Of a stretch of 46,991 bases of DNA, positions 24,645 through 25,889 are shown in pieces (within the stretch, counting starts at the first letter, position 1; each line of letters starts with the position of its first letter). The notes under the pieces were generated by a model. The model did not search any database, was not told where the DNA came from, and saw only the letters and a program-made list of their open reading frames with translations. The stretch comes from Gemmatimonadota bacterium. GTDB lineage: Bacteria; Gemmatimonadota; Gemmatimonadetes; Gemmatimonadales; Gemmatimonadaceae. The translations under genes were made by a program, and so were the position numbers. The stretch lies in NCBI GenBank assembly GCA_023249375.1, contig JAHFCT010000026.1, positions 1 to 46,991 of the forward strand. Reading direction: 5' to 3'.

Positions 24645-24683
24645 AAAAAGAAAAGCCCCCGATTCGCCGCGGCGAATCGGGGG
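24645..24683 (-). terminator. Attenuator terminator in the asnB leader
   Basis: On the minus strand a perfect 28-nt palindrome (14+14; about 12 bp can stack around a small CGCG loop) begins CCCCCGATTCGCC. It is followed at once by CTTTTCTTTTT, a strong Rho-independent terminator. It ends only 12 nt before the asnB ATG, with just the Shine-Dalgarno sequence in between, so it cannot serve the upstream gene, which has its own hairpin at 24831-24854. Its position inside the 5' leader makes it a regulatory attenuator. Confidence 0.85.
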
Positions 24684-24738
24684 TGGCCGGAAGCTTGGGT
24701 TTCTACAACGCGCCCAAACCGGTCCACGCGCGATTCGC
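24672..24738 (-). promoter_or_regulatory. Predicted antiterminator of the asnB attenuator
   Basis: The leader segment GCGAATCG (24738-24731) is identical to part of the terminator's 3' arm. It is complementary to CGATTCGC in the terminator's 5' arm (24679-24672). The enclosed RNA also folds: GTGGACCGG (24727-24719) pairs with CCGGCCAC (24690-24683) with one bulged A, and TTTGGG (24718-24713) pairs with CCCAAG (24699-24694). The two stems stack with a symmetrical 3x3 internal loop. The result is one long hairpin that excludes the terminator. The leader-peptide stop codon lies in its apical loop, so a ribosome reaching the stop would break it. The pairings are seen in the sequence; the mechanism is inferred. 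Confidence 0.7.
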
Positions 24739-24789
24739 GCGAGGATTCCGATTGCTATTGCGGCTAAACCGCGAGAGGGTGTGCGTCAT
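24703..24789 (-). CDS. Asn-rich leader peptide of asnB (28 aa)
   Basis: The ORF starts at ATG 24789 and ends at TAG 24703. Residues 11-19 read N-S-N-R-N-P-R-A-N: four Asn, all AAT codons (24759, 24753, 24747 and 24735 are their first bases). Asn is otherwise sparse and usually AAC in this GC-rich sequence. The start codon lies 11 nt downstream of a TACTCT -10 element, so the transcript would be nearly leaderless; only a weak AGAG precedes it. Placement between promoter and terminator, the stop codon in the antiterminator loop and the regulated gene asnB together match classical ribosome-mediated attenuation as in trp, his or leu operons. The peptide itself probably has no function. Confidence 0.8.
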   Translation of the reverse strand: MTHTLSRFSRNSNRNPRANRAWTGLGAL

Positions 24790-24800
24790 GGGCTCTGCGA

Positions 24801-24830
24801 AGAGTATCGGTCCGCCATCGCAAAGGTCAA
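24801..24830 (-). promoter_or_regulatory. Promoter of the asnB leader
   Basis: On the minus strand TTGACC (24830-24825) and TACTCT (24806-24801) are spaced 18 bp. An overlapping GATACT at 24808-24803 gives 16 bp. Transcription would start around 24795, a few nt before the leader-peptide ATG. Confidence 0.6.
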
Positions 24831-24860: not shown

Positions 24861-25889
24861 CTACGCCGTCAGTTCGTCGTACGCCGCGGTCAGCACGCGT
24901 TCGATCAGCGGTCCGTGATCGGGGAAGCCCTTCAGCGGATCCGTGATCTTGATGACGACGTCGCGCGGCCTGCCCGCCTTGATCTCGCCGCGCACGAACT
25001 CGAGCAGCGCGCCGAGATAGTCGCGCTGGTACTGCAAATCGGCGCGGTTCCCCGTGGCCTTGAACGCCGGATTCGCGTGGCCAAAGATGAAAATGGTGTC
25101 GGCGCCGTGATCCTTGATGACGCCGTCCAGCACCTCGCTCCAGTGCGCGATATTGGCGCCGCCGGGGCGATCGATGACTGGATGCCGGCGATTGAACACG
25201 AGATCGCCCACATGCGCGACATTGGCCTTCTCGAACGTGATCACCGCGTCGCCGCCCGTATGCGCAGCACCGTAGTACTTGAGTGACATCGTCTCACCGC
25301 CCACGGCCTCGCGCCACGTCGTGTCAAAGAGCGTGTCGGCGTAGACCTGCTCTGGTGGCGGCGGCGGAACCGGCGCTCCGGCTGCAGGCGGCGGCGCGTT
25401 GCGCGCCGCCAGCGCCGCGCGCTCAGCCGCCTCGCGCTGCAACCTCGGCACGTTGGCGTGCGCGAGAATCTTCTTGGCCGCCGGCCGGAAGACCCCGTTG
25501 CCGCCCGTATGGTCGCCGTGATGGTGCGTGTTCACCAGGAAGTCGAGCGGACGCGAGGAGGTGCGCGCGTTCACCGCATCGAGACAGATCTTCGCGGTGT
25601 CGGGGAACTGCGAGTCGACGACGACGGCGCTCTTGCCGTCGATGTGCCAGCCGATGGTGCCTCCGCGGCCGGTGAATGTGCCCACCGTGCCACGCACGAG
25701 CGTGAGCAGGTCGGGCTCCTGCACGGTGGTGCCCTGGGCAAGCAGCGATCGCCAATCGATGGCGGTGGCCGCGAGCGCGAGCGTGGAGGACTGGAGAAAA
25801 CGGCGACGATTGATGGGCATGGTGGAAGGCACGGGAAGGATCGGCGTGATGGGCATCGACCAGGGCCGCGCGCAGAGCAGCGCCCGCAA
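24861..25889 (-). CDS. TAT-exported metallo-beta-lactamase-fold hydrolase
   Basis: I use the TTG at 25889 because a perfect AGGAGG sits 7 nt upstream; ATGs at 25856 and 25820 are alternatives. The product (342 aa from TTG) carries a twin-arginine signal INRRRFLQSSTLALAATA, which the ATG at 25820 would also retain. The MBL motif HHHGDH (122-127), a later AAHTGGDAVI and GDLVFNRRHP, and a C-terminal GHANP give the zinc ligands of the lactamase-like fold. It is closest in pattern to class-B-like 'MBL fold metallo-hydrolase' proteins of unknown substrate, not to proven beta-lactamases. A Pro-rich insert (PPPAAGAPVPPPPP) lies mid-protein. It follows the TAT-type amidohydrolase on the same strand by 46 nt. 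Confidence 0.75.
   Translation of the reverse strand: MRALLCARPWSMPITPILPVPSTMPINRRRFLQSSTLALAATAIDWRSLLAQGTTVQEPDLLTLVRGTVGTFTGRGGTIGWHIDGKSAVVVDSQFPDTAKICLDAVNARTSSRPLDFLVNTHHHGDHTGGNGVFRPAAKKILAHANVPRLQREAAERAALAARNAPPPAAGAPVPPPPPEQVYADTLFDTTWREAVGGETMSLKYYGAAHTGGDAVITFEKANVAHVGDLVFNRRHPVIDRPGGANIAHWSEVLDGVIKDHGADTIFIFGHANPAFKATGNRADLQYQRDYLGALLEFVRGEIKAGRPRDVVIKITDPLKGFPDHGPLIERVLTAAYDELTA

Follow-up and report, generated by a model that had tools for sequence, protein, structure and literature searches.

The region ahead of the asparagine synthase gene asnB on the minus strand of the window, i.e., the whole stretch of 46,991 nucleotides of Gemmatimonadota DNA analysed here, very probably (at a probability of about 0.9) houses a ribosome-mediated transcription attenuator, which would sense asparagine and control asnB. 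In its anatomy, a short leader ORF with clustered Asn codons precedes the gene, a predicted promoter lies before this ORF, and a predicted intrinsic terminator stands between the ORF and asnB, and the amino acid that would be sensed is the product of the downstream asnB. The features of the locus are collected in Table 1.

Table 1. Features of the asnB leader region, in window coordinates
Feature	Position	Strand	Basis
Promoter -35 hexamer TTGACC	24825..24830	-	Consensus match only
Promoter -10 hexamer TACTCT	24801..24806	-	Consensus match; putative transcription start
Leader ORF, 28 codons and TAG, MTHTLSRFSRNSNRNPRANRAWTGLGAL	24703..24789	-	Homologous ORFs in 8 genus members and Holophagales
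Sensor Asn codons AAT	24759-24757, 24753-24751, 24747-24745	-	Sequence and alignment
Protector hairpin (1:2), palindromic core CGCGCG-AAT-CGCGCG	24720..24750	-	Fold and alignment
Mimic of terminator 3' arm, antiterminator 5' side, GCGAATCG	24731..24738	-	Pairing in 48 leaders
Fourth Asn codon, inside mimic	24735-24733	-	Sequence
Antiterminator hairpin (2:3), stop codon in apical loop	24672..24738	-	MFE -31.0 kcal/mol
Leader stop codon TAG, in antiterminator loop	24703..24705	-	Sequence and fold
Intrinsic terminator (3:4), 12 bp, predicted	24656..24683	-	-24.6 kcal/mol
T-rich run 3' of terminator	24655-24644	-	Sequence
GGAG before asnB	24641-24638	-	Sequence
asnB, glutamine-hydrolysing asparagine synthase B, 566 aa	22932..24632	-	NF006949 match

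The gene, its predicted promoter and the leader ORF

The gene was identified by a profile search, in which it matches the AsnB equivalog NF006949 with 808 bits against a cut-off of 499. Asparagine accounts for four of the 28 codons of the leader ORF, three of them inside a span of five codons, and the middle AAT of these three, which is located 15 nt ahead of the mimic, corresponds to the Asn codon that is kept in all 48 of the related leaders described below.

The predicted promoter of the leader (TTGACC-18-TACTCT, 24830-24801) follows a pattern, TTG[AT]C with 17-18 nt and TANNCT, that is found in all eight leaders from the genus of the window, where the end of the -10 box lies 6-12 nt from the leader ATG (11 nt in the window). 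Given this proximity, the leader mRNA of the genus would be leaderless, or nearly so, whereas asnB owns a GGAG. The promoters of the Holophagales differ from those of the genus, and the -10 box lies 14-17 nt from the ATG where its GATAA.GT form is recognised near that codon. The gene upstream of the leader on the same strand (24861-25889) encodes a metallo-beta-lactamase-fold hydrolase (PF00753) with no evident link to asparagine, and its best NCBIfam matches fall far under their cut-offs.

The genome from which the window comes also encodes AsnRS (479.9 bits against a cut-off of 342.6 in a profile search), which means that the charging of tRNA-Asn can report free asparagine. AsnRS was considered as a discriminating feature and rejected, as it was found in 75 of the 80 genomes searched, both with and without the leader, and it is thus a prerequisite that is present here rather than a test.

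Alternative hairpins

The mimic, at 24738-24731, has the same letters as 24667-24660 in the 3' arm of the terminator, and is complementary to 24679-24672 of its 5' arm. Going inwards, the antiterminator consists of the mimic pairs, a 3x3 internal loop in which the MFE fold places one lone pair, the stem GTGG(A)CCGG/CCGGCCAC, the extension TTTGGG/CCCAAG, and an apical loop containing the leader TAG (24705-24703). As it takes up the 5' arm of the terminator, the two structures are mutually exclusive, judging from the fold and from conserved pairing, without two-sided covariation.

An earlier note, made from the sequence of the window, had described most of this arrangement. Its leader segment copying the terminator 3' arm and able to pair with the 5' arm was confirmed by sequence and fold, as was the stop codon in the apical loop, and its first three Asn codons do lie upstream of the stem, with a fourth sitting within the mimic. 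Its single long hairpin with a 3x3 loop is indeed predicted for the window, although the TTTGGG/CCCAAG extension is not conserved, TTTGGG being present in three of the 48 aligned leaders when counted by eye. Having several alternative hairpins, as riboswitches do, the region might instead be under protein or small-molecule (riboswitch-like) control, or the leader might be translated mainly to couple or boost the translation of asnB, the Asn codons being incidental. This is exceedingly improbable, however, as asnB has its own GGAG and begins 70 nt past the leader stop, and the Asn codons fit the product of the gene in several unrelated leaders. A T-box or riboswitch was also rejected, the whole window being without an Rfam match at gathering scores, which tells against riboswitch-like control as well.

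The pairing seen in the window barely beats chance, given that GC-rich leaders pair easily. The energy of the duplex between the mimic and the 5' arm has p = 0.036 against 500 dinucleotide shuffles of the leader, the sequestration of the terminator 5' arm has p = 0.035 against 200 shuffles, and the whole 131-nt leader folds no more stably than expected (z = -0.44). The claim that so many pairings are unlikely by chance is therefore modestly true of the window alone (p ~0.035), and it is conservation in relatives that carries the case. The fold of the whole region, together with the fact that shuffled GC-rich leaders already hide approximately 0.3-0.7 of the 5' arm, would suit a terminator that either acts constitutively or belongs to the upstream metallo-beta-lactamase-fold gene, in which case the short ORF and the mimic would be there by coincidence in GC-rich DNA. 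Such a coincidence is extremely unlikely, given that the promoter and ORF are found upstream of the terminator in all eight genus members, that 48 leaders share a fixed 15-nt spacing and near-frozen synonymous sites, and that just one further small ORF dense in Asn codons exists in the window, close to a terminator-like site.

Conservation among the type-A leaders

The leaders that share the sequence type of the window, referred to here as type A, were aligned as 48 distinct sequences, eight from the genus of the window and 40 from the Holophagales. This set was selected with a search pattern that covers the mimic block and the 5' arm of the terminator, so that part of the conservation seen there comes from the selection itself. 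The 15-nt Asn spacing, the GTGG/CCAC inner stem and those third bases that come after the pattern lie outside it. The Asn codon lies exactly 15 nt ahead of the mimic, without gaps, in 48 of 48 leaders, and the GTGG/CCAC stem is paired in 192 of 192 cells. All 384 cells of the mimic helix are paired, i.e., its eight pairs are kept throughout, and the CCGG/CCGG helix is paired in 91.7 percent of cells, which brings the total for the antiterminator to 97.9 percent, as against 28-55 percent when the partners are slid by 1-3 columns. The terminator is paired in 99.4 percent of cells and the protector hairpin in 97.2 percent, with one protector pair changed from C-G to U-A on both sides in two sequences.

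No two-sided change was found in the pairs of the antiterminator or of the type-A terminator among the 48 leaders, and the covariation score of the antiterminator was not above that of shuffles. For the antiterminator, this is because nearly all of its pairs are invariant, and the evidence for this hairpin is one of conservation, not of covariation. Covariation across homologues had been proposed in the earlier note as a check, its absence counting against the antiterminator, and the outcome came close to that adverse result. At one position of the mimic and the arm, pairing is retained by wobble (A-U in 21 leaders, G-U in 25 and G-C in two).

In the block CGC GCG NAT CGC GCG TGG GCC, the third-base entropy is zero in six of the seven codons, the remaining codon being CGC in 44 leaders and CGT in four. 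In the Gly codon that follows the block, bases 1 and 2 are paired, and the unpaired third base is T in 20 leaders, C in 19, A in eight and G in one. Synonymous sites are thus nearly frozen in the paired block and free just outside it. As the central codon of the mimic, 27 leaders have GAT (Asp), 20 have AAT and one has AGT, which indicates that RNA pairing is kept at this position, not the amino acid, and that Asn is unnecessary there. The fourth Asn codon, although present in the mimic of the window, is accordingly replaced by Asp in 27 of the 48 relatives.

As the peptide block is strongly conserved among the type-A leaders, it might be supposed that the conserved R-A-N/D-R-A-W itself stalls the ribosome, as a nascent-peptide arrest that answers some ligand rather than empty Asn codons. 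This is highly unlikely, since the block is nearly frozen at its synonymous sites too, a change from N to D is tolerated at its centre, and other leader types are without such a motif yet keep the Asn codons and the mimic.

Folding states and the proposed mechanism

The front edge of a ribosome lies 12 nt beyond the start of the A-site, and a ribosome waiting at the Asn codon 15 nt ahead of the mimic would therefore end just short of it. In a front-edge model, folding was restricted to the RNA that the ribosome leaves free. For a stall at 24759 or 24753, the 5' arm stays paired with the mimic (P 0.92-1.00) until the RNA is exposed to about 24662, the value of 0.92 being the last step for the stall at 24753 and all others lying at 0.94-1.00. 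With the stall at 24747, only the last four of the eight mimic pairs can form, and with the ribosome at 24735 or at the stop codon, no mimic pairing is possible. In the full-length RNA, the terminator is favoured at equilibrium under every constraint, so that the choice would have to be kinetic, with the mimic taking the 5' arm while the 3' arm is yet to be transcribed.

Folding with and without blocked leader codons had been suggested in the earlier note as a check, and it gave a mixed answer, in which the switch is predicted in partial RNA, but the preference for the terminator at full length throughout comes near to the result named there as adverse. The central proposal of that note, that stalling leads to antitermination and completed translation to termination, is nevertheless supported by the constrained folds, by the 15-nt spacing and by the similar anatomy found elsewhere.

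In the proposed mechanism, RNA polymerase would start just 5' of the leader ORF, with a ribosome trailing it. When charged tRNA-Asn is scarce, the ribosome would halt on the Asn codons with its front edge just 5' of the mimic, blocking the protector hairpin, and the free mimic may then capture the terminator 5' arm as this emerges, which would allow the polymerase to run on into asnB. When asparagine is ample, on the other hand, the ribosome would translate across the mimic and reach the stop codon, which lies midway along the antiterminator, thereby opening this hairpin, and the terminator would form. If no ribosome is present, the protector hairpin would vie for the mimic, hiding it when its own 5' arm is unheld.

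Other leader types

Other Gemmatimonadota and Holophagales have asnB leaders of unrelated sequence and similar anatomy. By fold, the last Asn codon lies 13-20 nt from the mimic in 18 of 19 representatives, 13 nt being the minimum of the test, and 27 nt from it in L225. Two or more nucleotides of the stop codon fall inside a hairpin loop in 10 of the 18 representatives scored (expected number, 1.7), and in none of the four rows of type D, which comprises the NNPPPGWSW-like leaders of the Holophagales. The p value of the duplex is below 0.05 in eight of the 14 representatives tested and above it in six, and that of sequestration is below 0.05 in three of 19, all of type A, and above it in 16. 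The type-C leaders (SRG-like, with the mimic around GAGCCGC) are convincing by their duplexes. For types D, F (L211) and G (L214, L215) and for L213, where each pairing is weak when taken singly, the case is made chiefly by the Asn codons, the terminator and the location.

Some assignments were made by hand or eye. The automatic terminator scan misplaced the terminator in L174 and L063 and found none within limits in L224, where it was set by hand. For L145, L161 and L168-L170, the ORF picked automatically was not the leader ORF, which was seen in the alignment. The sensor Asn was set by hand at codon 13 in L001 and, for the count of stop codons in loops, at codon 9 in L225.

Distribution and descent

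This AsnB is present in 55 of the 77 genomes of the Holophagales. The upstream DNA was examined in 50 cases, as four genes without a 5' end and one starting 51 nt into its contig were left out, and these regions comprise 41 with type A, five with type D and four without a leader (L171, L176, L177 and L178). One of the latter (L171, genome G436) has a TTGACG promoter, similar to the one in its relatives, directly ahead of asnB, and may be regarded as a natural deletion of the attenuator. Among 67 Gemmatimonadota genomes, eight have type A, 12 have other Asn leaders (L014, L196, L211, L213, L214, L215, L217, L218, L222, L223, L224 and L225) and 47 have none, including L220 (G297), where an Asn-rich ORF lies far upstream and no terminator was found. 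The leader is therefore dispensable, as shown by the four Holophagales and 47 Gemmatimonadota that are without it.

In a wider set of 80 named AsnB relatives, 77 of which had enough upstream DNA, an Asn ORF followed by a terminator was found in eight, i.e., seven of type A, one of which (L057) comes from the same genome as L010, and one from the Flavobacteriaceae (L095). Of 29 Flavobacteriaceae loci fetched, 28 were usable, and five of these have Asn-dense ORFs (e.g., MLLFNLNNNNNNNPLP), followed by a terminator in four. Poly-Asn leader ORFs thus occur in a subset of this family (L095:1883-1921, L275, L276, L278, L279 and L302, with MFLILVNNNNNNNNNART, MLLFNLNNNNNNNPLP and others), and a terminator precedes asnB in all except L276.

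Genes of other pathways were also inspected. At three Holophagales trpE loci (L260, L261 and L262), a terminator, GAGCCCGAC..GTCGGGC-T-run, lies ahead of trpE, and in L261 and L262 it is preceded by a leader ORF with WWW (MPLSFPTLRQGLLHGAWWWRTGSDGSSREA in L261), with a mimic-like GGGCTCGG after the Trp codons. These two leaders appear to follow the same plan for tryptophan. In the genus of the window, no attenuator was seen before trpE in four of the five genomes matched (all but L259, which is cut at the contig start), before ilvB in the two of five genus genomes matched at E 1e-100, or upstream of asnS in the regions checked.

In a tree of 128 AsnB proteins, built by a quick method with SH-aLRT support only, the eight genus members form one clade (SH-aLRT 99) nested in a clade of 51 rows (100), the rest of which are from the Holophagales or other Acidobacteriota, with one Myxococcota MAG. 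The other AsnB proteins of the Gemmatimonadota are placed elsewhere in the tree, with other leader types. It follows from this nesting that asnB and its attenuator probably came jointly into the genus of the window from the Holophagales. A member of the same genus (L014, genome G003) is among those placed elsewhere. Its AsnB is a different one, at 57 percent identity, and is preceded by an Asn leader of unrelated sequence, which may represent a displacement of the gene with its control retained. Types A and D both occur inside one AsnB lineage.

It is rather likely, given these patterns, that the attenuation of asnB through Asn codons is widespread and has originated, or been reassembled, repeatedly in three phyla or more (Gemmatimonadota, Acidobacteriota with the Holophagales, and Bacteroidota with the Flavobacteriaceae), that the leader sequence turns over fully as the Asn codons, the mimic spacing and a stop near the middle of the antiterminator persist, and that the gene and attenuator can cross phyla as a self-contained, regulator-free cassette.

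Relation to known attenuators and significance

Ribosome-mediated (leader-peptide) attenuators control amino-acid operons such as trp, his, thr, leu, ilv and phe. The asnB leader resembles these in having an ORF that carries codons for the amino acid under control, its promoter ahead and same-pathway gene downstream, and its alternative protector, antiterminator and terminator hairpins. It differs in that asparagine would be sensed and asnB controlled, in its phyla (Gemmatimonadota and Acidobacteriota), in a reading frame that crosses the 5' arm of the antiterminator and ends in its loop, and, in the genus, in a nearly leaderless ORF. The T-box attenuators of Asn genes in Firmicutes also respond to uncharged tRNA-Asn by antitermination, although their RNA binds the tRNA directly and without translation.

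Leader-peptide attenuators beyond the classical set are described in several studies. These include predictions for trp, ilvB and leuS in Actinobacteria (PMC1262725) and the uORFC-8-2 cysS motif of the Rhodobacterales, recently proposed from comparative genomics (PMC8632094), which is similar to the asnB leader in this origin and differs in its cysteine codons, its tRNA synthetase gene and its occurrence in Alphaproteobacteria. The His leader peptides of bacillar hisS paralogs, for which horizontal transfer and convergence are discussed (PMC2965389), are, like the asnB leader, found outside the Proteobacteria and Actinobacteria, and differ in concerning histidine, hisS and Firmicutes. According to the same source, hardly any attenuator predicted there for the Acidobacteria was of known function. 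Leader-peptide attenuation before amino-acid operons is also mentioned for a Flavobacterium, in a text that does not name asparagine (PMC9723704).

The word "asparagine" is absent from the main texts of PMC1262725, PMC2965389, PMC4833913, PMC8632094, PMC9723704 and PMC7366714, and in a limited literature search, by titles and the openings of abstracts, no published Asn leader attenuator was found. The mechanism proposed here is that of classical attenuation, and it is the specificity for asparagine that was not found described in the literature searched.

Asparagine would accordingly be added to the set of amino acids that leader peptides sense, and classical attenuation would be placed in the Gemmatimonadota and Acidobacteriota, for which no described case was found in the literature searched. 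The existence of at least two unrelated sequence types with the same geometry, and the occurrence of types A and D in a single AsnB lineage, provide a natural experiment on the minimum that an attenuator requires, which may be an Asn codon one ribosome front ahead of a mimic of the terminator arm. Finally, as asnB would move with a switch that needs only a ribosome, a tRNA and a polymerase, its regulation may cross phyla without a regulator protein.
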